Source of the DNA: Verrucomicrobiia bacterium
Lineage (GTDB): Bacteria > Verrucomicrobiota > Verrucomicrobiia > Limisphaerales > DASXHY01
NCBI GenBank assembly: GCA_035629175.1
Contig: DASPIL010000048.1
Location: 1 to 64,000, forward strand
Length of the DNA stretch: 64,000 nucleotides
Direction: 5' to 3'
This document shows positions 1 through 29,680 of the stretch, one piece after another. A program made the position numbers and the translations under genes. How positions within the stretch are numbered: position 1 is the stretch's first letter; each line of letters opens with the position of its first letter. The notes below the pieces were generated by a model, which was not told the DNA's origin, made no database searches, and saw only the letters and a list, made by a program, of their open reading frames with translations.

Positions 1-99
1 CCTACGGCTCCAGGGACTCCGTTCCACCGAAGGGGGTGGTTTCGAAAGGGTTGAAAGATGACACAGAGATGAAAACAAAACCGGCAGGCACAGTGATTT

Positions 100-291
100 C
101 TAATTGTCACTGAAGTGAAGAATAATTGTCATTGAACATCCCATTCTGGTTCCGACCATCTTGGGATCGTTGGTAACCTCCTGAGCATAGCCGCCGACCT
201 CGATTGCACCGGGTTGCAGTGTCATCAGGTCATTGTGGCCAACGGCGAGGACGTCGGCGGCTTGCTCGTCGATGGAGGACGCGACAGACAT
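100..291 (-). CDS. Small phage protein, unknown function
   Basis: A 63-residue protein whose ATG overlaps the TGA stop of the upstream virion gene by one base (TGATG), which favours this short start over a longer reading that only shadows that gene. Composition is mixed, with no signal peptide or membrane segment. It lies directly downstream of the capsid region, where head-tail completion proteins are usual, but nothing in its sequence allows a specific assignment. The stop at 100-102 is followed by about 100 bases without a recognisable gene. Confidence 0.55.
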   Translation of the reverse strand: MSVASSIDEQAADVLAVGHNDLMTLQPGAIEVGGYAQEVTNDPKMVGTRMGCSMTIILHFSDN

Positions 292-695
292 CAGATGCCA
301 GGCTTGTTGCTGTAGCGAATCGTGTTGGTCGCGGCGATCGATCCGCCTACGGAGTAGTGGTCTAGCCGCAAGTAACCCAACCCGCCCACATTGAGATTTG
401 TCACTGCTGCGCGACCCGGAGTAGTGGACGTATCGAACGTGATAACGAACGTGTTCGTTGTGAAGTTGGATCCATCCACCGAGGTTCCGAACCGTGCGAC
501 AATGTTTGTCGCAGAGCTCAACCATTGGATCGTGACGTTGCTCTGATTGCCGACATACAAGACCTGGTTTGTCACCGGCCCACCCGAACCGCCTGCCACG
601 TTCTGAACGGTCAACATCTTCGCGTCATACGCATTCGCCGTCAGCGCCATCGCACTCACGGCCAGAATGCCCGGCATTGATTTCAATTTCTTCAC
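291..695 (-). CDS. Putative phage virion protein (decoration or minor structural)
   Basis: A 134-residue protein starting at a GTG that overlaps the upstream stop (GTGA, 692-695). The first 22 residues look like a short signal-like hydrophobic stretch ending AYDA. The rest is rich in Thr, Asn, Val and Gly, a beta-rich pattern common in phage decoration and fibre-like proteins. It follows the capsid gene by one small gene, where head decoration proteins often sit. I recognise no defined family, so the structural role is inferred from position and composition. Confidence 0.6.
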   Translation of the reverse strand: MKKLKSMPGILAVSAMALTANAYDAKMLTVQNVAGGSGGPVTNQVLYVGNQSNVTIQWLSSATNIVARFGTSVDGSNFTTNTFVITFDTSTTPGRAAVTNLNVGGLGYLRLDHYSVGGSIAATNTIRYSNKPGI

Positions 696-1039
696 TTCTT
701 GCCTTTCTTTTTGTTTGGGGTTTCAGGGCCGGAGTTTTCCGGTTGAGATTGCTTTTCCTTGGCTTCCTTGGCCTGAGCTTCGGCATCAGCCTTCGCTTTA
801 GCTTCCGCTTCTTCGGCGGACTTCACGCGCGCTTCGGCTTGTGCCACGGTGATAAAACGAAGCGTTTTCTTCGCGGGAACTTCTTCGAGCAACGATACGC
901 TTTCGAACTCGTTATTGGTCCGGCTCCGGGCGAGTGTTTTGAACTTATCGATCTGAACGGTCGGCTTCACGTCGCGGCCGCAGATGAGTTCGTCTTTGCC
1001 GGTCTTTCGACTTCTACCGATGAGAATAAATGAGCGCAT
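692..1039 (-). CDS. Phage hypothetical protein with charged Ala/Lys/Glu-rich tail
   Basis: A 115-residue protein. I chose the ATG at 1039 because a longer version would run into the capsid gene end at 1083. The N-terminal half (about 1-60) is compact and mixed; residues about 65-100 are an Ala/Glu/Lys helix likely to form a coiled coil, and the extreme C-terminus is very basic (NKKKGKK). It sits between the capsid gene and a putative decoration protein, so a head-associated role is plausible. No family is recognised. Confidence 0.6.
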   Translation of the reverse strand: MRSFILIGRSRKTGKDELICGRDVKPTVQIDKFKTLARSRTNNEFESVSLLEEVPAKKTLRFITVAQAEARVKSAEEAEAKAKADAEAQAKEAKEKQSQPENSGPETPNKKKGKK

Positions 1040-1082
1040 TGGAAAGAAGCCGGGTGTTTGGCTGTCCACCCGGCACAGGGGG

Positions 1083-3374
1083 TTAACCGTTGGTGATGCG
1101 CTTCGCGGCAGCGGCTTCTCCGGCATTGAAGCCGTAGTTCACCTCCACGATTTCGCGCTCCTCATCCTGGTCAGCATCGCCCCAATAGCGATATTCGAAC
1201 GCGACGCCGGTGGTTGGATCGACAACAACATCGTAGCTGACCAACTGCCGACGAACGCCAGGCCCGGGCGCAATGGGTGATGTGGCGACCAGAGCAGCAG
1301 ATGGCAGGACCGCCAAGCCAACGAGGTTCTCAGAGTTGTTCGGGAACCGTGGGCTGTGATAGATATCGAAACGATCGACCCGGCCCGTCGAGCCTTCACG
1401 CAGCGTCGATTCACTTCCGGACTTGTCGGCGTTCTTCAGGGATGGATCCTTTTTCAGGTTCGTGTGATAGCTCGTCAGCAAGACCAACGACCGACTTGTG
1501 TCCGGCCAGTCTGAATCGTCACAGCTTCCGCCGATGTCGATTACATCATCGGAGTCGAAAGCGTCGGCCTGCTCCAGCTTCACTGTTGCGCCGTAGGTCG
1601 CGAGCGTGAACACGCCGAGAACGTCCAGCCAGACATCCAGCGCCAACTGCTCTGCCTTAAGCTCCATCAACCGCATCGTGTTGAAGTAAGGCTGGCGAGA
1701 AAGCAGGTGACTGTAGAAGTTGAACGGCTGGTATTTACGTTTGTTGATCGTCACGTCCTTGTCGAGCGTGCTGGTGCTGGTGTCGAACTGGTATCCTGTC
1801 CCATCGGAGAAGTCCTTGCTCGTCGTGGTAAACAACGGGTAGTAGGGCACCGCGATCTTGTTGGTTCCCTCGAGCGGGACATTGTTGAATCGCGTGCTGA
1901 AGATGCTCAGCGGAAGAATCCGGCGCTTGAAGGCGCGCATTCCGTCCGAAAGGATGACATTGCGCTGCAGGTCCGAGCTGATGGTGTTTGCGGCGAGTGC
2001 TTCCCTGATCTTGTTGCGGTTTTTCGTGATCATTGCGTTGATCGCGACCGCATTCTTCTGCATCGCTTTGACATCCGGATCATTGCCGGCGAGCAGTGAA
2101 AGGATCGGCTTCCGCATCTGCGCCAATCCAGCTTCGATGTCCTTCACGCTGGCGCTTTCCTCTGAGATTTCGATCGCGACAGGTTCTGCTGGCTCCGGAC
2201 GGACGGGGTTCTGCCCGAGCGCCGCGAGAACCGCGCTGTCCTTCACTTCTCCAGACTCAGACAAAATCGCTGGAAGGGCCTTTTCCGCCTGCGCCTGGGT
2301 GATTTTGTTTGCAGCCACAAGCGCAGCCAGTTGCTTGTCAGCTTCGGCGCGCTTATTCACCTTCGCCATCTCAGCGTTGATTCCCTTCTGAATCTCGGCA
2401 GTGATGTCGATTGTGGTAGCCGGAGCTGCCGCGGCAGGTGCCGCCGGAGCCGAGGCCTGAGGTTTGCCTTTTCCGATCATCGTGACCAACTGCTCGTCGG
2501 TCAGGCTGTCGTTCGTTTCAACGCCCCACGATTTCAGCAGGGCGAGCATTTGGTTTCGGTTCATAACTATGTCTGTTTTTTTGTTTGCCCCGCCTTTAGG
2601 GGCGGAATTCGGATCAGCCGCAGCGGCAGGCAGGTGTTTGGTTTGTCCAGCGGCAGCAAGAATGAGAGAACGGCACGCGAGCGGGATGCGCTTGAAGGCC
2701 TTAGCCTCCATGCCGGAAAAATCGAGAGCGTCGAGAGCCGCAGATTCGTCGTTGACCTCGTCAGCGAGCCCCCACTCAACAGCCTCTTCGCCCGTCAGCC
2801 AGGTTTCCTCCTTCATCGCAGAGCGGATCTGCTTGTCGGTTCGCTTGGTGCGCTCGGTGTAGGCTGCGACAAGAACGTCGCCATGCTTTTCGAGCATGTC
2901 CGCCGACTTGTTGATCAGCTCGGCATACTTGCGCATGTCATCCGCGTCGCCAGAGCACCCCTCAACCCAGCTCCACGGATTGTGAATCATCCAAAGGGCA
3001 GACTTCGGAGAGATGACCTTTGCGGCCGCGAGAGGGAAATAGGAGGCGATCGAAAGCGCATAGCCGTCGATTCTGCAGGTGACGTCGCCTTTTCGCCGGG
3101 AGATGGCGTTGAAAATGGCGAGTCCTTCGTTGACCGATCCTCCCTGGCTGTTGATTCCGACGTTAACCCTTGTTCCCACGGGGACTTTATTGAGAGCATC
3201 CGTGAAGTCCTTTCCGGTAATACCGTCGTCCGACCAAAACGAGCGCCCAATTGGCCCGTGGATCAGAATCTCAGCGTCCTTGTCATCTGTCGCCGCGTTG
3301 AAAACGACCGAATACTTTCCGGCTGAAGATTTCACTCCGGCGGCATCGGCAAAAATGGGAAAATTCGTCTTCAT
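1083..3374 (-). CDS. Phage head maturation protease (ClpP-like) fused to scaffold and major capsid protein
   Basis: A 763-residue polyprotein. Residues about 20-220 match the S14 ClpP-like prohead protease: nucleophile Ser108 in GYALSIAS, His131 in WMIHNP and a likely Asp180 in RTDKQ. Residues about 271-440 are Ala/Lys/Glu-rich, as in scaffolding segments. Residues about 450-763 look like an HK97-fold major capsid protein. ATG overlaps the portal stop (3371-3374). A seven-A run and an in-frame Met271 sit exactly at the protease-capsid border, so the fusion may arise from a homopolymer error, slippage or a true gene fusion. Cleavage in the head would release the mature capsid subunit. The capsid assignment is less certain than the protease. 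Confidence 0.88.
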   Translation of the reverse strand: MKTNFPIFADAAGVKSSAGKYSVVFNAATDDKDAEILIHGPIGRSFWSDDGITGKDFTDALNKVPVGTRVNVGINSQGGSVNEGLAIFNAISRRKGDVTCRIDGYALSIASYFPLAAAKVISPKSALWMIHNPWSWVEGCSGDADDMRKYAELINKSADMLEKHGDVLVAAYTERTKRTDKQIRSAMKEETWLTGEEAVEWGLADEVNDESAALDALDFSGMEAKAFKRIPLACRSLILAAAGQTKHLPAAAADPNSAPKGGANKKTDIVMNRNQMLALLKSWGVETNDSLTDEQLVTMIGKGKPQASAPAAPAAAAPATTIDITAEIQKGINAEMAKVNKRAEADKQLAALVAANKITQAQAEKALPAILSESGEVKDSAVLAALGQNPVRPEPAEPVAIEISEESASVKDIEAGLAQMRKPILSLLAGNDPDVKAMQKNAVAINAMITKNRNKIREALAANTISSDLQRNVILSDGMRAFKRRILPLSIFSTRFNNVPLEGTNKIAVPYYPLFTTTSKDFSDGTGYQFDTSTSTLDKDVTINKRKYQPFNFYSHLLSRQPYFNTMRLMELKAEQLALDVWLDVLGVFTLATYGATVKLEQADAFDSDDVIDIGGSCDDSDWPDTSRSLVLLTSYHTNLKKDPSLKNADKSGSESTLREGSTGRVDRFDIYHSPRFPNNSENLVGLAVLPSAALVATSPIAPGPGVRRQLVSYDVVVDPTTGVAFEYRYWGDADQDEEREIVEVNYGFNAGEAAAAKRITNG
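2562..2582 (-). other. A7 homopolymer and internal ATG at the protease-capsid junction
   Basis: On the coding strand seven adenines (2582 down to 2576) are followed at 2569-2567 by TAG in the neighbouring frame and at 2564-2562 by an in-frame ATG (Met271 of the fusion). Removing one A would end the protease at that TAG after 268 residues, and the capsid gene would start two bases later. This is the arrangement expected for two separate coupled genes. No clear Shine-Dalgarno precedes the ATG. Confidence 0.7.
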
Positions 3375-4858
3375 GCGGGCTGCAAATCCTCCTGGCGCTG
3401 CTTTTCGGTCTCTGCGGCCATCTGCGCCTTCATCGACTCAGCGATTGCGCGACGAATGCGATCAGGCGTAAGCCCGTATTTCTTGGCCGTGATGTCGATG
3501 ACCTGCTCTTCGCGTCCGCGCTGGTCGATTTGCTTCCGCCAGCTCTGGTTGCGCGGCAGATAGATGTCCTTCAGCGTCGTCGCACCTGATTCCAGCTCGG
3601 CAATCATCGCCGCGGAGTTCCGGCCGACGTCCACGTTCGGCGCGCGCGGCGGCAAAACTTCGATTCGGGTCCAGTCGAACGGTGCATCGGCAACGCGCAC
3701 GTCGGAGAATCGTGCGGTGCCCATCGCGAACAGGTAAACTTCGAACGAAGCGCGAGCGAACGTCGCGAAACGCGAACGGAAATAGTTCGTTGCAAGATCG
3801 AGCTCGGAACGCGCAACTGTGCCTTGCAGTGACCACGGGAAAACCAGAAGCTTCGAGACTCCTACGCCGGCGCAAATCAGCGAGGCCATGTAATCCCACA
3901 GCCACTGTGTTGCCGCCGACGGGCTTTCGTTCTTCAACTGCAAAATCTTCTCGCCAGATTTGACGGCAACACTCTTCGGACCGAGCACGCGCTTGATGAA
4001 CTCGTAACGCTGGCTGTCGATGGAATCGGTCGGCGCCGTTTGTGTCGGAAGAAATCTGTTTTGCCGAGCCTGCTGCGGACTGAAAGAGCCCGTCGCGTTT
4101 TCCCAGATGTTCGTGATCTGCGCGTTGTCCTTCGCCTTCTGCATTTCGAACATGCAGAGGTCGTTCCAGTCGTGCAGGAGATTCATCACCGGCGTCAGCT
4201 TCGGAAGCCCTCGGTATTGATTTGGTGCCGATGGCTCGAAGAGGTGAATCACCTCATTCGCCGTGCGTTCGGTGAATCTCTCATCGTCGAAACCTTCCTG
4301 AATGAAGTAGCTTATCGGCCGGCCGCGCTTGTCGATGCGCACACCGTCAATGATCGTGCTGCCTTCCTGGTCGTAAAGGTCGGGAGGCGTTGCAACGCGA
4401 TGGGCCGAGATGCCTTGCAGCCGAGGACGTCCGCGTTCACCGGTCTTCAGGAGGAAAAATTCGCCATCGAAGAACTCGCGCCAGCACGCGGTTGTCATCA
4501 ATCCGCCGTATCCGAACTTCGAATTGAGATCGGCGACTTGTGACCACTCGTCGAGCCAGTCGGACGCGCGAAGGTTCCAATCCTCGTCAGAACTCTCAGG
4601 CGAAACTGTCGGACCAAAGGCACCGACAGTGAATTCGGTGTAAACCTCCGCGATGCGGTTCGCCAGGGCATCGTTCTTCTCGAACCATCGAGACTTACGA
4701 ACCAGCTCCATGCGCGTGCATTGATCCGCGTCGATGTGCGCGTCTTGAACGAACCCGGGAAGGAACGTTCGGCGAGGATTGTAACGGAGACCGGCTTCGT
4801 ATCGCGCGAAGGTCCACATCGCGCGCATGAAACCGAAAGCTTTCGAGAGCGGGTTCAT
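3371..4858 (-). CDS. Phage portal protein, lambda gpB family
   Basis: A 495-residue protein forming the dodecameric ring at the head vertex through which DNA enters and leaves. The N-terminal pattern with an early ARYEAG segment, a central WREFF-GEFF region, an HLFEP segment and the PKLTPVMNLLHDWNDL helix is that of lambda-type portals. The ATG at 4858 overlaps the stop of the upstream gene (ATGA), which is preferred over a GTG three codons earlier. Its own stop overlaps the protease-capsid start. The C-terminus is Gln/Glu-rich. Length is normal for the family. Confidence 0.92.
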   Translation of the reverse strand: MNPLSKAFGFMRAMWTFARYEAGLRYNPRRTFLPGFVQDAHIDADQCTRMELVRKSRWFEKNDALANRIAEVYTEFTVGAFGPTVSPESSDEDWNLRASDWLDEWSQVADLNSKFGYGGLMTTACWREFFDGEFFLLKTGERGRPRLQGISAHRVATPPDLYDQEGSTIIDGVRIDKRGRPISYFIQEGFDDERFTERTANEVIHLFEPSAPNQYRGLPKLTPVMNLLHDWNDLCMFEMQKAKDNAQITNIWENATGSFSPQQARQNRFLPTQTAPTDSIDSQRYEFIKRVLGPKSVAVKSGEKILQLKNESPSAATQWLWDYMASLICAGVGVSKLLVFPWSLQGTVARSELDLATNYFRSRFATFARASFEVYLFAMGTARFSDVRVADAPFDWTRIEVLPPRAPNVDVGRNSAAMIAELESGATTLKDIYLPRNQSWRKQIDQRGREEQVIDITAKKYGLTPDRIRRAIAESMKAQMAAETEKQRQEDLQPA

Positions 4859-5304
4859 CGGTAGCACCCCGCTTCGCTGTAATCGTGTTGGATCTCCGTG
4901 ATCTCGATCAGGTGATCCATCATCCAGACAAACAGGTTCGCGTCGGTCGCCGCGGTAGGAGTTCCGGCGGTGTCTGAGCCGTTCAGCTCTGTTGCCGCTG
5001 GATCGAGGCTTTCGGAAACGCAGTATTCGAGAAACCGCTTCGATGAATCGTAGAGGTCAACAAGTTCACGCCACGCAGCGCGAACGTCTTCAGGGGATGG
5101 AGCGTGGGCTCCTGGTTTAGCGAACTTCGTAGTCCGCCCGTTCATCGACACGAGCTCGATCGCGCCACCGGCCACAGCTTTGCGAGCCGTGGTTTCGTTT
5201 GCGCGGAGTTGAGTGCGAAGATCTGGGGAAGTTGAGTTCGCGACTTTCGCCGCGTCCCAGGCATCCTCCAGAAAACTGCGCTTCAAACTCGTGCTTATCG
5301 CCAC
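4855..5304 (-). CDS. gpW-like head-tail joining protein (tentative)
   Basis: A 149-residue protein between the large terminase side and the portal gene, the place of gpW in lambda. The first 85 residues show a gpW-like pattern: a helix with Arg/Ala, a short strand pair around IELVSMNGRTTKF, then a second helix around AWRELVDLYD. The remaining 60 residues are unlike the short lambda protein. The start is a GTG; no strong ribosome site is visible. The assignment rests on gene order and a loose sequence pattern only. Two 16-bp palindromes lie 38 bases upstream of the start. Confidence 0.6.
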   Translation of the reverse strand: MAISTSLKRSFLEDAWDAAKVANSTSPDLRTQLRANETTARKAVAGGAIELVSMNGRTTKFAKPGAHAPSPEDVRAAWRELVDLYDSSKRFLEYCVSESLDPAATELNGSDTAGTPTAATDANLFVWMMDHLIEITEIQHDYSEAGCYR

Positions 5305-11502: not shown

Positions 11503-13094
11503 ATCATCTGTGGTTGCTTCTTGCGCTCCTTGAGAGCTTTGAAAAATCGTCCTGCCTGCGCGGCGGTGACGTTGTCGAAATCGGTGATGCCGACCTGAGC
11601 GGACAGGCCACGCATGCGCTTCATAAGGCCGATCGCCTTCGGGGCCGCAAGCCGCGGCCGAAGGTTCTTGAAGTGCAGGTCGAGCAGTTTTGTCGCGTGT
11701 CCAAAACACGTCACAGTTGAAGGATCAATCTTGGCTCGCTTGAGCAGCTTCTCTTGCGCAACGCTGACGGCGGCAGTTTCCCACCCCATCGTGGGCTCGT
11801 AGTCGGCGGCTTCGAATGCACCATGATCGATCGCAAACTCGGCGGCTGAAAACTCGAAATTATTGGACTTCTTGTTCCGCTGTTCTTCCAACCTCTTCCT
11901 AAGTGCGATCTCACGTTGGCCGACAGCGTCGTTTGATACTTCGATCAAATCGACTTGGAGTCCTTCAGCGATATCACCCGGAATCGCTCCGGTCTTTTGC
12001 ATTGCAAGTTCGGTGATGATCTCGGCCTCGGCTTCAGTCTTTGCGACCAGGTGCGCCGGGCGGCAGACCATGTTTTTGCCTGACTGATACAGGAAGTCCA
12101 ACAGCAGCAGGTCCTCCTTTCCGGGGCAGATGCGGGTCCCTCGTCCAACGCACTGCATATAGAGTGAGATGGACTTTGTGGGACGCAGCATGACAATGCA
12201 GTCGATGGACGGCTCGTCATAACCACGGGTCAGTAGCGCTGAGTTGCAAAGGATGTCGAATTCTCCACGAGCGAAGCGCTTCAGCTTTTCGTCCCGATCT
12301 TCCGATTCGCCGTCAATGTGCTCGGCGTTCAGTCCAAGGTCCTGACAGATCGAAACGAACTTCTGAGATGTCTTGATAAGAGGCAGGAACACCATTGTCT
12401 TGCGGAACATCGCGTGGTCGACGATTCCGCGGGCGACGGCCTCCAAGTAGGGCTCGATTGCTTCGTGCAACTGATTCTTGTCGTAGTCGGAGCCGTTCTC
12501 TGTCCGCGCCATTCCGACGTTCTTCAAGTCGATCGGGAGCGGCAGCATCTGAATCTTGATGCGCGACAGAAATCCCTGATTGATCAAATCCAGCAGCTTG
12601 ATCTCGCACGCGACATTCTCATAGAAGCTGCCGAGCTCCTTCTGATCAGTCCGCCAGGGCGTAGCAGTAAAGCCACACGTGCGCGCATCGAAGTGCTTCA
12701 AGACCTTCTGCCAGATGTCTGAGACGGATTTGTCTGCCTCGTCGGCAATGACGAGTGAGAAGTGATTCTTGGACCAGTTGTCCAGTCGCCGAACCATGCT
12801 TTGCACCGTGGACACAACGACAGGCGCAGAGTGGGACGCCGAGAACTCAGCCTTTTCGGCGTCGCCGCGGATTCCAGATGTTCGCTCCAGCTTCTCCAGC
12901 GCTTGCCAGACGAGTTCGTTTTGATCGACAAGGATCAGCGTGCGCTGACTGCGCTGCCATTCGATCTTTGCCAGGTGCGAGAAGCAGACCGTCTTTCCGG
13001 ATCCAGTGGGCGAAACAACCAGCTGGCGCGAGAACTCAGCCCAGCCTTTGTTTACGGCCTCGACGATCTGCTGTTGGTAGGGACGGAGGTTCAT
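11499..13094 (-). CDS. Superfamily 2 DEAD/DEAH-box helicase
   Basis: A 531-residue DNA helicase of the phage DEXD/H type. It starts with RPYQQQIVEAV (Q-like motif), Walker A SPTGSGKT at 28-35, DEAD at 118-121, motif III TATPWR at about 143-148, and a C-terminal helicase half with LTRGYDEP and the motif VI-like QCVGRGTRICPGK. This family resembles type I restriction R-subunit and UvrB-like helicases and is frequent beside VRR-NUC and primase genes in phages. Start and stop are coupled by four-base overlaps to the methyltransferase and the nuclease. Confidence 0.9.
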   Translation of the reverse strand: MNLRPYQQQIVEAVNKGWAEFSRQLVVSPTGSGKTVCFSHLAKIEWQRSQRTLILVDQNELVWQALEKLERTSGIRGDAEKAEFSASHSAPVVVSTVQSMVRRLDNWSKNHFSLVIADEADKSVSDIWQKVLKHFDARTCGFTATPWRTDQKELGSFYENVACEIKLLDLINQGFLSRIKIQMLPLPIDLKNVGMARTENGSDYDKNQLHEAIEPYLEAVARGIVDHAMFRKTMVFLPLIKTSQKFVSICQDLGLNAEHIDGESEDRDEKLKRFARGEFDILCNSALLTRGYDEPSIDCIVMLRPTKSISLYMQCVGRGTRICPGKEDLLLLDFLYQSGKNMVCRPAHLVAKTEAEAEIITELAMQKTGAIPGDIAEGLQVDLIEVSNDAVGQREIALRKRLEEQRNKKSNNFEFSAAEFAIDHGAFEAADYEPTMGWETAAVSVAQEKLLKRAKIDPSTVTCFGHATKLLDLHFKNLRPRLAAPKAIGLMKRMRGLSAQVGITDFDNVTAAQAGRFFKALKERKKQPQMI

Positions 13095-14674
13095 GACCGC
13101 TGCGTCAAGGCGGCTCGGACAAGCGCTTTTGCGAGGTTCTTTGGAACGGCGTTGCCGATCTGCTTTACGACCTGCGTAGTGTTGCCGGTGAACTTGTAGC
13201 CACGCGGGAAGCCTTGAGCGGCTGCAAGCTCGTGCGGTTTCAACATGCGAAAACGAATGTCGAGCAGGTATTTCTCGCCGTGAATTTCGACGGTCGGCAT
13301 CACGAGTCCGAAGCGGTCTTTCGTGGTGACAGTTGGGAGCGGCTTATCGACGCTCTGTGCGTCCCCCTTGCCGTAGAAGGAAACCAGGCATGGCTGAACC
13401 AGCCTTATGCCGCGCGACGTCGTCGTGATTGTCCCGAGTGGTTCGTGAACGCTTTGGGGTGCAGCCCCGTTGAACTGGGGCACAATGAACGGCTGAACGA
13501 GTGAGATGGCGCCCGACGTTGCTACGGTTGGCAAGGGCTCAGATGCGGGACGTGGTTGTGCCCCCGATTGCTGGCCGATGACGAACGGCTCGCACAGTGC
13601 CCACTCGCCGCGATTCCCCGCCACGGTTGGCAGCGGGACATGCGTGCCGCGCACACGGCGACCGTCCCCGTTTATGTCACCTCCATTTCCGTGGGCGCAC
13701 TGAATGAGGTAAGGCTCGCACAAACCGAGGTGACCACCGCCTGCCGTCAGCGCTGGCGCTGGCTTGTCCAAATCTTTCGCGTCGCAATTGCCACGTAGAT
13801 GAACCAAGTAAGGCTCTGCTACCGCCATCGCTCCACCTTTCGCGGTGGTGATGGTTGGCAGCGGTAGATCAAAGCTTCGGACGCTGCCTTGATGCTCCAT
13901 GTGGATCGTGAACGGCTTGAGGCCAAACCTCTCAAGCCCGATCATGATCCGGTTCAGTGTCTTGTCAGCGAGCGGCTTTTTGCGGCCGTAGATGGATTTG
14001 CCTTCAAGCTTCCAATCAATGATATCCCTGGCTGGCACCCATCGCTTCCTGGCGCCGAACATATCTTCGGTCGCAACTGGGGCGTGTGTCGGCTCTGGCC
14101 AGACGATCTTGCGACGACCGCGCACCGCGTAGACAAAAAGCCGTTTCCGTGTCGTTGGGTCGCCGTAGTCCGCAGCGCAGAGAACACGCCAGTCGACGCG
14201 ATAGCCGAGCGACTCAAGGCAGCTCACCCAGGCTGAGAAGACTTCGCCCTTTTTCGTCTTGAGCGGCCGGCCGTCAGTCCCGATCGCGCCCCACGAAACA
14301 AACTCCTTCACGTTTTCGATCAGGATGATCGACGGCCGCAGAGCTTCAGCCCATCGAACGACACACCACGCGGTTGCGCGGGACTGATCATTGATTGGCT
14401 TTCCACCGCGAGCGATCGAGTGATGGGTGCATTCCGGTGAGGCCCAGAGGATGTCCAGCTCGCCTTCCCCGTAGAGATCGCGAGGGTTCAGCGCGTCGAG
14501 CGATGCGCAGAGATGGCGCGCGTCCGGATGGTTTTGCGTGTGCGTCGCTACGGCAACCTCCCAATGATTTATTGCGGTAAGGTCGCACTCGTGGCCGAGT
14601 TCCTGACAGGCTTCAACAAGGCCCGTGGACGTTCCACCAGCTCCGCAGAAAAGGTCGGCAGCTTTGAGTTTCAT
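13091..14674 (-). CDS. DNA (cytosine-5) methyltransferase with repeated target-recognition region
   Basis: A 527-residue C5 methyltransferase. Motif I DLFCGAGG is at 7-14, catalytic Cys82 lies in SPECTHHS, motif VI ENV at 120-122, motif VIII TTRKR at 174-178 and motif X GNAVP at 507-511. Between motifs VIII and IX/X, residues about 270-460 hold six repeats of 32-42 residues, each beginning with a P-L-P-T-(I/V)-T-T-like turn and most continuing to an EP(Y/F)-like step. Phages use such enzymes to protect DNA from host restriction; no matching endonuclease is adjacent. Overlaps couple it to both neighbours. Confidence 0.92.
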   Translation of the reverse strand: MKLKAADLFCGAGGTSTGLVEACQELGHECDLTAINHWEVAVATHTQNHPDARHLCASLDALNPRDLYGEGELDILWASPECTHHSIARGGKPINDQSRATAWCVVRWAEALRPSIILIENVKEFVSWGAIGTDGRPLKTKKGEVFSAWVSCLESLGYRVDWRVLCAADYGDPTTRKRLFVYAVRGRRKIVWPEPTHAPVATEDMFGARKRWVPARDIIDWKLEGKSIYGRKKPLADKTLNRIMIGLERFGLKPFTIHMEHQGSVRSFDLPLPTITTAKGGAMAVAEPYLVHLRGNCDAKDLDKPAPALTAGGGHLGLCEPYLIQCAHGNGGDINGDGRRVRGTHVPLPTVAGNRGEWALCEPFVIGQQSGAQPRPASEPLPTVATSGAISLVQPFIVPQFNGAAPQSVHEPLGTITTTSRGIRLVQPCLVSFYGKGDAQSVDKPLPTVTTKDRFGLVMPTVEIHGEKYLLDIRFRMLKPHELAAAQGFPRGYKFTGNTTQVVKQIGNAVPKNLAKALVRAALTQRS

Positions 14675-15097: not shown

Positions 15098-15304
15098 CTA
15101 ATAGCCTCTCCCTGTGTTCTTCGCGTTCTCGACGGCGGCGATTACTTCCCGCGCAACCAGCGTGACTTCTTGATCAAGAACCTTCAGCACGATTAGGTCG
15201 CGATCGTTCCAATGACTCTCGATTCGCACGTGCGGCAAGCTTTCGAGTTGCTCCCGAGACTGGCCGTGAGACTCGACGACTGTCAGCTCGCTGGATGTTT
15301 TCAT
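15098..15304 (-). CDS. Small phage protein, unknown function
   Basis: A 68-residue protein between the helicase-methyltransferase fusion (ATGA overlap at 15,301-15,304) and the DnaA-like gene (one base gap). The second half (IVLKVLDQEVTLVAREVIAAVENAKN) looks like a strand plus an amphipathic helix. It has no Cys cluster, membrane segment or known domain. Tight packing supports it as a real gene. Confidence 0.65.
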   Translation of the reverse strand: MKTSSELTVVESHGQSREQLESLPHVRIESHWNDRDLIVLKVLDQEVTLVAREVIAAVENAKNTGRGY

Positions 15305-17829
15305 GTTCCCACCACCTCCTGACCGGCGCGTTGAAGATCGAAGAGCGTCGGCATGCAGCGCTCAGCTTCAGCCTGCTCGCAGTAGCCAACACCGCAGCGC
15401 CAATACTCCGGTGAAAGCTCAATCCCCCAGCCGATGCGATGCAGGTGAACCGCGCAGTATGGCACCGTGAAGATTCCAGCGAACGGATCCAGAACGATCT
15501 CGCCCGGGTTGCTGTAGCGGTTGATCAGCCGGTTGACGATGTCCAGTTGCAGCGGGCAGACGTGGTTCTCTTCGTTGCGCTTCTGCTGCTCGCTGTTCAG
15601 ACAGTTGATTCGGCTGATGTCGGTCCAGATTCCAGGGTGCAGAGATATCGGCGGAAACAGCATGAAGCTGGCAGGCAGGTAGTCACGCGCCTCCAAAGCG
15701 GCCGCAATATCGACATGCTCCTGCCAGTCGTAAACGTGATTCTTGGAATGCTCCTGCCAGAGCTTCCGCACATTATCCATCGGCATGTTGACGAGCAGTT
15801 CAGGGTCAGGAAGGCGGTTGCCGTTGGACTTCCAAAACCCGGCGGCATCGACCTGCCAATGCGCGCGGAGGTAGATATTTTTGTCCTTCGTGACGGGCAG
15901 GTCGGCGTAGGCGTTCGACAGATCGGTGTGAGGCTTCCGAAAGAGCAGAACGTACTCAGGCATGCCAACGCCCATCTTCGTGGAGTCTTTCGCGTTCTCG
16001 CTCCAACCGAGTCGGTAGGTCTGCGCGTTCTCGCGGACGACGTCGGTGTCGATCGTGATTCGACCGAGGAAGAAGAAGCCGTGCTTTTCAAAGCAATCCG
16101 CTGTCTTGTCACTGAAACGATCAACGGTCGGAACTCCAGTCCCATGCTGGCCACCGAAACGGATTCTGTCTTTGACGTGAATGCAGGCCAGACGCCCTGG
16201 CTTCAGCACGCGGAGCAGATGCGGCACAAGGAAGTCCATCTGCTTGAAGAAATCCGAGTTGTCAGGATTGTGGCCGAAGTCGTTGAAGTTCGGTGAATAC
16301 TCATACTGGTTCCCGAACGGTATTGAAGTGACGATCTGATCAACCCGGTTGTCAGTCCATGTTTGCAGTTCGAGAACGCAGTCGTTGTGGATGGCTCGGA
16401 ACTTTTCGCTGGCCGATTCGACGCGGTCGCAGCCGATTGAACGTTTGATTTCCATAGTTTTGAGGTCGAGGCGGAATTTGCGGAGAAGCTCGGACATCTT
16501 GGCAACCAGCTCGTTGTGCTGTGCCCATTTCTGTTTCAAGACTTCAACGACTGGGTCCTCGGACTCGGTGTAAATGAAGTGGATGTTGACCTGTCGCGGC
16601 TGCTGGAAGCGCTGAATCCGATGCACAGCCTGAATGACGTCGTTGAACTTGTAGCTCGCTCCAAGGAAGATGGCGTCGCAGCAATGCCGCTGGAGATTGC
16701 AGCCCGAGCCAGCAAGGACGGGCTTCGAGGCGAAGTGTTGAAAGTCGTCGGAGAATTCGCCGCGCGAGAACCGCAGGATGATTTCTTCTCGTTCGTCGAG
16801 GTCCTGCGAGCCGTAAACGGTTCTAACGGCCGGTACCAGTTGCTCGATTGCGCGTCGCTCGTCTTCGAGGTCGTGCCAGATGATCCAGTGCGCGTCACGA
16901 TTCTGCGCGATGATTTCTTGCGCCTTCGCGAGTCGAGACACAATGCTGTCGCGCTTCACCTCGGCCAGCTCTTTTAGACCGCTGGACTTGTCGAGGAAGA
17001 GCGCGTGCTGTCCAGCGCGATCGACCATTGCCCAGGCTTTCTTGTGATCGACTGCGACCGAGTGCCAGTGAACTCGAAGCGGTGGAAGCTCGTAACCCTC
17101 ATCGCTGTAACCGAGGTCCGAAGGCCGCTGCATGAACACAGCCCACGATGCGAGCCACGTCCAGAACTGTTCCTCCATGTGCGGGTGCAGGGTGAGGTCG
17201 CCAGCCTTTTTCGGGTTGCGTTTGAAGAACCTGGTAAGCGCCTGCCCGGTGTCCATCACTCCGAGAAAGCCGCCGTAATGGATCAGCTCTTTGTGGCGGT
17301 TTGGCGAAGGCGTCGCGGTGAAGACGAATCGATATGGAATCGCCGAGCCGATCTGGAGAAAGGTCTGATACGTCTTCGATCCGAAAGAACGCAGGACCGA
17401 AGACTCGTCCAAGCCCCAGCCGCAGAACCGGCCGTCGAGCGTGATCTTCCCATCTCGCACCGGCTCGTAATTGCAAATGACGACCCGCGTCTGCGCTGCG
17501 TCGATTTCCGCATCGGTCTGGCAGAAGGTCATTGCAACGTCCATGACCGGCCCGTCTTCGTGGATGAACTGATGCCGGACGCCGAGCGGGCACGTGATCA
17601 GGAACTTCTTTCCCGGGTTGGCTTCTACTGTCCACTTGGCGACCTGCAGGTGCGTGCGAGTCTTACCAAGACCGAAGGCCTTGAAGCATGCACGGCGACC
17701 TCCGCGGACCATCCATTCAGCGATATCCCGCTGATGCGGAAATAGCGACGGGTGCGCTTCGCTCGGAGGCGAGAAACCTTGATGCTGCGCGCGCGGCATC
17801 TTGGACAGAATGAAGTCTTGGTAGGTCAT
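15301..17829 (-). CDS. SNF2-type helicase fused to N4/N6 DNA methyltransferase
   Basis: An 842-residue two-part enzyme. The N-terminal half is a SNF2-like translocase: LFPHQRDIAEW near 30-39, Walker A AFGLGKT at 51-57, degenerate box II DES at 141-143, TATP at 171-174 and motif VI-like QAVHRIQRFQQ at 400-410. The C-terminal half is a beta-class amino-methyltransferase with SIPF (502-505) in place of the usual (D/S/N)PP(Y/F), LLRVLKPGRLACIHVKD, and the SAM-binding LDPFAGIFT near the C-terminus. I recall similar fusions in other phages. A start at 17,922 is rejected because 17,829 overlaps the upstream stop (ATGA). It probably methylates phage DNA while moving along it. Confidence 0.9.
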   Translation of the reverse strand: MTYQDFILSKMPRAQHQGFSPPSEAHPSLFPHQRDIAEWMVRGGRRACFKAFGLGKTRTHLQVAKWTVEANPGKKFLITCPLGVRHQFIHEDGPVMDVAMTFCQTDAEIDAAQTRVVICNYEPVRDGKITLDGRFCGWGLDESSVLRSFGSKTYQTFLQIGSAIPYRFVFTATPSPNRHKELIHYGGFLGVMDTGQALTRFFKRNPKKAGDLTLHPHMEEQFWTWLASWAVFMQRPSDLGYSDEGYELPPLRVHWHSVAVDHKKAWAMVDRAGQHALFLDKSSGLKELAEVKRDSIVSRLAKAQEIIAQNRDAHWIIWHDLEDERRAIEQLVPAVRTVYGSQDLDEREEIILRFSRGEFSDDFQHFASKPVLAGSGCNLQRHCCDAIFLGASYKFNDVIQAVHRIQRFQQPRQVNIHFIYTESEDPVVEVLKQKWAQHNELVAKMSELLRKFRLDLKTMEIKRSIGCDRVESASEKFRAIHNDCVLELQTWTDNRVDQIVTSIPFGNQYEYSPNFNDFGHNPDNSDFFKQMDFLVPHLLRVLKPGRLACIHVKDRIRFGGQHGTGVPTVDRFSDKTADCFEKHGFFFLGRITIDTDVVRENAQTYRLGWSENAKDSTKMGVGMPEYVLLFRKPHTDLSNAYADLPVTKDKNIYLRAHWQVDAAGFWKSNGNRLPDPELLVNMPMDNVRKLWQEHSKNHVYDWQEHVDIAAALEARDYLPASFMLFPPISLHPGIWTDISRINCLNSEQQKRNEENHVCPLQLDIVNRLINRYSNPGEIVLDPFAGIFTVPYCAVHLHRIGWGIELSPEYWRCGVGYCEQAEAERCMPTLFDLQRAGQEVVGT

Positions 17830-18101
17830 ACCACGAAAAGCTTCTGCACCCGGATGAAAGCAAACCGCGCTGTTTTGGTGTTCCGCACCGTGTCGCCTGC
17901 AAGCAGTTTGGCTCTGTGGCACGCTTGCTCCTGAGATTCAAACGGGATCGGGAGCCCTTTTTCTTTCCGGAAGAATTCGATGCAAGGCTTCCGCGTGCGC
18001 AAATCGATTGCCGTCACAATCCAGGCTTCGACATCCTTGAGAACAGGCTCCGGAACGCGAGTTACATCGCATTCTTCAACGGCATGAGTTTCAATGTGCA
18101 T
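17826..18101 (-). CDS. Small phage protein, unknown function
   Basis: A 91-residue protein overlapping the helicase-methyltransferase start by four bases. It contains a mixed strand/helix pattern (EAWIVTAIDLRTRKPCIEFFR, then a helix SQEQACHRAKLLAG) and ends in a hydrophobic FAFIRVQKLFVV. No known domain is recognised. The 100-base gap upstream (18,102-18,201) holds only a possible 20-codon frame starting GTG at 18,205, too short to call. Confidence 0.65.
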   Translation of the reverse strand: MHIETHAVEECDVTRVPEPVLKDVEAWIVTAIDLRTRKPCIEFFRKEKGLPIPFESQEQACHRAKLLAGDTVRNTKTARFAFIRVQKLFVV

Positions 18102-27857: not shown

Positions 27858-28108
27858 CGGTTACCCGGCATCTGCGCAGCGTCCAATCCGGCACCAAGTG
27901 CCTCCTTGATGCCCTTCATTGTCGCGGTCGGAGTTGGTTGAACATTTCGGTCGCGGATCCGGTTTCATGCCGCCCGCGCAACTCGCGGCGGCCAAAATCG
28001 TAGTGCCCGTTCCTCATTACTCCAGCCTTTTCACCGCCCTGGGAACTTTCCCGGGCACATTGGTGGCATTCGCCGATTTGTCCATTGACTGGAGGTAATG
28101 TGCTGACG

Positions 28109-29680
28109 ATGGTAACCGGCGCTATGGCAAAAATTGAACGCGCACTGCTTTCAGTTTCGGATAAAACCGGCCTTGTTCCGTTCGCTCAGGCTCTTTCAAA
28201 CGCCGGCGTGGAACTGATCTCAACCGGCGGAACGGCCAAAGCATTGCGCGATGCAGGACTTCGAGTCAAAGACATCAGCGAGCATACCGGATTTCCGGAA
28301 ATGCTTGATGGTCGTGTAAAGACCCTTCACCCCAAGGTTCATGGGGGATTGCTGTATATCCGCGGCAATGCGGCTCACGAAACCGCAGTAAGGGAGCATC
28401 AGATCGACGCAATAGACCTCGTCGTGGTGAACCTCTATCCGTTCGAACAGACCGTGGCGAAGCCAAACGTTTCCTTGCACGACGCGATTGAGAATATCGA
28501 TATTGGCGGTCCCTCAATGCTTCGCAGCGCTGCGAAGAACCATGAGACGGTGACAGTCATTGTTGATCCAGCAGATTACGAGGAAGTCGCGCGGCAGATC
28601 GCTGCTTCTGGAGACACTTCGCTTGAATCACGTCGCCGATTGGCCACGAAGGTTTATTCGAGAACAGCGGCTTACGACGCGGCGATTGCAGCGCATCTTG
28701 AAAAGGCATTCTCCGATGGCTGTGGCAAACAGGCATTGCCGGCAGAGCTGACGTTATCGGCGCCGCTGGCGCAGACATTGCGCTACGGCGAGAATCCGCA
28801 TCAGGAAGCGGCGTTGTATGGCGCGTTTTCGGATTACTTTCAGCAACTTCACGGCAAGGAGCTTTCCTACAACAACATTCTTGATCTGACAGCAGCCGCG
28901 CAATTGATCGCGGAATTTGAGAACGATCAACCCACTCTGGCGATCCTGAAGCACACCAATCCTTGCGGTGTCGGCCAGGGAACGAGCCTGCGCGATGCAT
29001 GGGAGGCAGCCTTTGCGACCGACAAACAGGCTCCCTTCGGCGGGATTATTGCAGTCAACCACGCATTGAACGGTCCGTGCGCGGAAGCCATTGCGGAGAT
29101 CTTCAGCGAAGTGATTGTCGCGCCGGAATTCACGCCAGAAGCGCTGGCGATCCTTCAGAAGAAAAAAAACCTGCGGTTACTGAGGATGTTGCGGTCAACG
29201 TCCTCGGGCCAATCGTGGGATATCCGAAGCGTGGGATGCGGTTCCTACCTTGTCCAGGGTCGCGACATCAAGTTGACCACGCGCGGAGATCTCAAGATTG
29301 TCACGAAACGCAAGCCGAGCGCCGACGAGTTGGATGCCATGTTGTTTGGGTGGCGGGTCGTAAAACATGTAAAATCGAATGCCATTGTGTATGTCACGGC
29401 GGCGCGGACGCTCGGAATCGGCGCGGGGCAGATGAGCCGGGTGGATGCCAGCCGCATCGCGGTTTGGAAAGCGCGTGAGGCTGCACTCTCATTGAAAAAC
29501 AGCGTGGTTTGCAGCGACGCTTTCTTTCCGTTTGCTGATGGATTGATCGCCGCAGCGGAGGCCGGGGCCACCGCTGCGATTCAACCAGGAGGTTCTGTCC
29601 GGGACGCCGAGGTGATTGCCGCGGCCGACGAGCGGAACATGGCGATGGCATTTACAGGGCACCGGCACTTCCGCCATTGA
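28109..29680 (+). CDS. purH: Bifunctional AICAR transformylase / IMP cyclohydrolase
   Basis: A 523-residue enzyme for the last two steps of IMP synthesis. The N-terminal MGS-like cyclohydrolase domain (about 10-145) has [36 protein letters not shown] and [10 protein letters not shown]. The transformylase part contains [28 protein letters not shown] and APFGGIIA, ending GHRHFRH. A GGAGG at 28,091-28,095 precedes several starts; ATG 28,109 is chosen, with GTG 28,100 and ATG 28,124 possible. About 250 bases upstream are free of genes and must contain the promoter. Confidence 0.96.

Follow-up and report, generated by a model that had tools for sequence, protein, structure and literature searches.

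A putative capsid start nested in frame inside a protease-scaffold-capsid fusion gene from Verrucomicrobiia

Nested scaffold starts and protease-capsid fusions in phages

In phage lambda, the start of the Nu3 scaffold is nested in frame in the protease gene C. The two genes, C and nu3, are listed in the accessible text of PMC10695390, and an in-frame scaffold start inside the head protease gene is described for Mu-like phages in the accessible text of PMC4378225. The locus analyzed here resembles lambda C/Nu3 and Mu in that the in-frame start of a predicted second product lies inside a protease gene. However, in those systems the nested product is the scaffold only and the capsid gene is separate, whereas here the ORF runs into the capsid domain, and the predicted product is not a scaffold without capsid as in Nu3- or Mu-like starts. 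The predicted product is closer in composition to HK97 gp5, in which a scaffold (delta) domain precedes an HK97-fold capsid, although in HK97 protease and capsid are encoded by two genes, gp4 and gp5 (accessible text of PMC8508860).

Fusions of the protease with the capsid have also been described. The type defined by the NF045540 profile (scaf_prot_MCP1, "ClpP-like prohead protease/major capsid protein fusion") includes Pseudomonas phage MD8 gp5 (accessible text of PMC8508860), and the "major capsid and protease fusion protein" of Microbacterium cluster EE phages (BurtonThePup gp5) is a protease-scaffold-capsid fusion (accessible text of PMC7302621). Our search, mostly of open literature, recovered fusions and nested scaffold starts and no case of a capsid start nested within such a fused gene. 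The words "internal" and "Shine-Dalgarno" are absent from the accessible text of the MD8 paper, as is "internal" from that of the Microbacterium paper. Protease-capsid fusions and nested scaffold starts are already known, and a fused gene with its own internal capsid start would be new by the literature searched.

The fused gene and its relatives

The window, i.e., the whole stretch of 64,000 nucleotides that was analyzed, begins at base 1 of an 84.8-kb contig. At 1083-3374, one uninterrupted minus-strand ORF of 763 amino acids encodes a full-length protease-scaffold-major capsid protein, in agreement with the sequence-only reading, which had described protease and capsid as fused in one frame. 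Residues 34-209 (2748-3275, minus strand) form a ClpP-like (S14) head maturation protease domain matching the NF045542 profile with 154.5 bits (cut-off 120), as in NF045540 fusions, and PF00574 with E = 1.9e-24. The "capsid" half of the ORF really consists of a scaffold/delta-like region (residues about 271-460; 1995-2564, minus strand), mostly helical in an AlphaFold2 model, followed by a major capsid domain of the HK97 fold (residues about 461-763; 1083-1994, minus strand; phrog_283, E = 3.7e-16). Residues 506-678 match phrog_283, a major head protein family. The model of residues 271-763, obtained from a 20-sequence alignment with a mean pLDDT of 79.2, retrieved HK97-fold capsids with Foldseek; the best match in the PDB was 8zdm, mycobacteriophage Douge gp8 (E = 5.5e-13). 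Protease and HK97-fold capsid thus lie in one uninterrupted ORF that is kept in relatives, as in phage protease-scaffold-capsid fusions in general.

The genes upstream encode the portal protein (3371-4867, minus strand), whose stop codon overlaps the protease ATG, and the terminase large subunit. The contig edge is located about 1 kb past the capsid gene (window 1-1100). Since window and contig share their first base, most of the genes expected after the capsid gene fall outside the contig; the remaining structural genes are missing on that side, which means that the phage is truncated or spread over more than one contig. Elsewhere on the minus strand, an 873-aa ORF (15301-17922) combines an SNF2-like part (PF00176, weak) with an N6/N4 DNA methylase domain (PF01555), and a C-5 cytosine methylase (13091-14674) contains "PLPT(V/I)TT...VQP"-type repeats in the middle of the protein.

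We searched for relatives in viral contigs, species genomes, and relatives' genomes and found two arrangements, with protease and capsid in separate ORFs at 60 loci and in one ORF at 18 loci. The latter corresponded to 15 distinct loci, or 14 once L056, a near-copy of L055, was dropped; these 14 and L206 make up our distinct window-type set (n = 15, window included). All 15 ORFs were fused in one frame, as expected from the true fusion that the sequence-only reading had listed among its options. The fused relatives were mostly 25-45% identical to the window, and a Pedosphaera genome carries one such ORF (L135, the same gene as L007; 39-40% identity). No DNA match to the fused gene was found in phage records. 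The closest protease relative, L156 (L156:3329-5317), was 59.5% identical to the window in the protease and only 22% in the capsid domain, with an ATG present at the boundary; the boundary has thus been kept while the capsid module differs, which points to a capsid module swapped inside the fused gene.

The start codon and the A7 run at the junction

The scaffold part of the fused proteins opens with a sequence resembling M-N-K/R-x-x-I-x-A-L-L, after a variable linker. A start codon was present at the protease/scaffold junction in 15/15 distinct window-type fusions; in one of them (L059) GTG (Val) takes the place of the Met codon, and AAGGAG lies a few bases upstream. For statistical comparisons we used a junction set of 29 of the 134 protease ORFs, which we selected by the presence of a start codon where the scaffold begins and which share ancestry, the starts being placed by the protein motif and not by the leader sequence. 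The placement is less certain in L058, L162, L192, L195, and L198, and three members (L059, L063, and L163) run off their contigs. The set includes L158; both L158 and L159 are protease-scaffold genes that show an MNRTEM start-like motif at the boundary and are followed by a different, separate capsid-like gene. A clear nested start was absent from some fused ORFs (L189, L193, L229, L233, and L216, the last being an NF045540 member).

In the window, the junction codon is the in-frame ATG of Met271 (2562-2564, minus strand), from which a product of 493 aa comprising the scaffold/delta region and the capsid (residues 271-763; 1083-2564, minus strand) is predicted. A run of seven A (T7 on the plus strand; 2576-2582, minus strand) occupies positions -18 to -12 of this start. 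The geometry noted in the sequence-only reading proved exact: with one A removed, a protease of 268 residues would end in KKQT at a TAG (2567-2569, minus strand), and the capsid ATG follows this TAG by two bases. The minus-strand ORF of the neighboring frame (2567-2779) indeed ends in KKQT before the TAG, a stop codon that is reached only if one A is lost and for which no function is supported. A/T runs of seven or more were seen twice in the window, about 9 being expected from a first-order Markov estimate; an A7-type run is thus not rarer than chance in the window, nor are such runs enriched. The other one, an A8 on the plus strand (29162-29169), is the longest A/T run in the window and lies within an open frame (28085-29680).

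This geometry has suggested two explanations that we consider highly improbable. If the run were an assembly error for A6, protease and scaffold-capsid would be two coupled genes, both intact and tightly spaced, and A6 is indeed found in the matching stretch of L057 (same contig as L157). However, this relative is still fused in frame (GGGGCAAACAAAAAACAG against GGGGCAAACAAAAAAACAG in the window) since the missing A is offset by a difference in base number after the run, and all 14 distinct window-type ORFs other than that of the window, from other assemblies, are fused. Moreover, A6 and A7 would leave the nested start at one and the same ATG. On the evidence of these relatives we rejected the homopolymer error; very probably, A7 is the correct sequence and the fusion is genuine. 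Programmed slippage of polymerase or ribosome on A7, producing a free 268-residue protease and a capsid restarting at the ATG past the TAG, would suit the exact geometry of the window, but a run of at least seven was present upstream of the start in just 1/29 junctions (in L055 an A7 follows the start codon), the codons C AAA AAA ACA do not have the phase of the A AAA AAN heptamer of -1 slippage, and the alternative-frame stops vary among relatives. With the slippery run not kept and its phase wrong, slippage was rejected as well. The A7 run is very probably part of the leader of a nested start instead.

An A-rich leader in front of the nested start

The putative internal initiation region, which spans -30 to +18 relative to the nested ATG (2547-2594, minus strand), is A-rich. 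Such leaders are known to promote initiation in the absence of a Shine-Dalgarno (SD) sequence in Escherichia coli (accessible text of PMC7043885), and in Flavobacterium johnsoniae the same effect is reported for A at -3, -6, and -12/-13 (accessible text of PMC6847099). Junction starts (n = 28) were richer in A than the remaining in-frame ATGs of their ORFs (n = 469; fraction 0.44 vs 0.23, p = 6e-14) and less structured (folding energy -2.95 vs -11.3 kcal/mol, p = 9e-16). They did not differ from control ATGs in SD strength within the window's group (mean -2.81 vs -2.60, p = 0.85), and we thus rejected SD as the general signal of this group.

Codons were also redrawn from each ORF's own synonymous usage. 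Junction starts exceeded the synonymous draws by 2.2 A per 30 nt (p = 2e-8), against -0.24 at control ATGs, and their structure was 1.35 kcal/mol weaker than in the draws (p = 0.002), although the junctions of L164, L166, and L198 were more folded than their synonymous variants. In a test by five-codon blocks on 29 sequences (the 28 junction starts and L009), the A excess was limited to codons -10 to +4 (z of 5.6, 6.7, and 7.0), the remaining blocks ranging from -1.8 to 1.9. The excess was positive in 29/29 junctions and in all 15 members of the window-type core (Wilcoxon p = 6e-5). Position -3 was an A in 20/29 junction starts, compared with 23% of 482 controls, and the junction start was the least structured in-frame ATG in 20/29 ORFs and the most A-rich in 15/29. 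A conserved in-frame start codon and initiation signals thus coincide at the protease/scaffold boundary.

The leader of the window itself contains 14 A in 30 nt, against a synonymous expectation of 10.8; a count this high came up in 1% of 200 draws. The A excess over 14 codons at the junction ranks in the top 1.4% of such stretches along the ORF. The window is nevertheless not the strongest case, as its leader has no SD (+0.4) and carries a G at -3, although positions -6, -12, and -13 are A. Its folding was no weaker than that of synonymous variants (-6.3 vs -5.1), and the junction ATG ranked 2nd of 15 in-frame ATGs on both A-richness and structure.

The relatives with a separate capsid gene provided a comparison with real starts. 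Their 55 genuine capsid starts were A-rich (0.41), unstructured (-1.9), and without SD (mean +1.15), while the internal Met in the protease-scaffold genes of 32 such relatives, our working negative control, in which sequences are close to each other, displayed no such A-rich/low-structure signal. The leader thus goes with the capsid, standing before the gene when it is separate and inside the ORF when it is fused.

Nested starts in other fusions and a model for the locus

NF045540-type fusions were initially taken as a negative control and dropped, as they turned out to have their own conserved ATG with an SD. From 88 loci, 75 with a suitable ORF were retained, and 26 after removal of near-duplicates; 21/26 fitted the first boundary motif, and all 26 were used for the SD analysis. 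The ATG at the protease/scaffold boundary was kept in 26/26 non-redundant members, with an SD of -5 kcal/mol or better in 25/26, against 52/575 control ATGs, and stronger than the synonymous expectation (-2.11 vs +0.36, p = 6e-12). These fusions, including MD8 gp5, resemble the window in that a single ORF encodes a ClpP-like protease, the scaffold, and the capsid, with a conserved boundary ATG, but their boundary start has an SD whereas that of the window has none. In addition, the NF045540 profile misses the capsid part of the window, which scored 174.2 bits over residues 34-373 only, below the 475-bit whole-protein cut-off.

The actinophage fusions that we examined (n = 7, from Microbacterium and Curtobacterium) were our own pick from the 60 rows listed, plus BurtonThePup, and include close relatives; in 7/7 the boundary ATG was preceded by GAGGA or GGAGG (SD of -5.8 to -10.3) in a weakly folded context (-1.1 to -4.3). 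The cluster EE fusion is thus similar to the window in its protease-scaffold-capsid order and low-structure boundary ATG and differs by its GAGGA-type SD before the start and by its HK97-type protease (TIGR01543, carried by the two actinophage fusions tested). The predicted nested start is Met166 of gp5 in BurtonThePup and Met220 of gp5 in MD8. In the actinophage ORFs (L317:3795-5381, L319-L324), the peptide that precedes the boundary Met, often R-E-D, has GAGAGGAC-like coding DNA and looks like a translated SD.

Two readings without a functioning nested start remain to be weighed. The fusion could be obligate, only the 763-residue chain being made and cutting itself, with the junction ATG and its A-rich stretch incidental; several phages are indeed annotated with single protease-capsid fusion proteins. 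We consider this unlikely, given that the synonymous-site signal is localized at the start codon, that GTG stands in place of ATG in L059, and that the signal recurs as an SD in two other lineages. Even less likely, the A-rich junction could be an unused relic from the start of a once-separate capsid gene, since separate-capsid relatives use the same kind of leader, but among fused relatives mostly 25-45% identical an unselected synonymous bias should have vanished, and yet it was positive in 29/29 junctions.

The conservation of the start codon, the local synonymous A excess, and the likeness to genuine capsid starts together indicate that the ORF most likely holds a nested gene. We thus favor, with a probability of about 0.8, a true in-frame fusion of protease and scaffold/delta-capsid with a second in-frame gene, that of the capsid precursor, nested inside. 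Translation from the protease ATG (3374), overlapping the portal stop, would yield a small amount of the 763-residue protein, and the nested ATG, aided by its A-rich leader without SD, A7 included, a large amount of the 493-residue precursor. Long and short chains would co-assemble, and the protease, carried in by the few long chains, would then cut off the scaffold part. Initiation at the nested ATG, the product ratio, co-assembly, and maturation are what we infer from the sequence signal. The sequence-only reading was thus probably right in suggesting that protease and capsid precursor are made in a set ratio, the means being a nested start codon rather than slippage; the extra product would be a free capsid precursor instead of the free protease that it had proposed.

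A fusion with one protease per capsid subunit would place hundreds of proteases in each shell, and a nested start would explain how few proteases and many capsid subunits are obtained from one ORF. With odds slightly better than even, most phage "protease/major capsid fusion" genes may be two in-frame nested genes, an internal start setting the protease:capsid ratio through the initiation signal favored by the host in at least three lineages (Verrucomicrobia-type, A-rich; NF045540-type, SD; Microbacterium/Curtobacterium-type, with a different protease family). The nested start predicts a second product where public annotation has only a fusion protein, and this could be tested in phages already cultured, those of Microbacterium cluster EE and Pseudomonas phage MD8.
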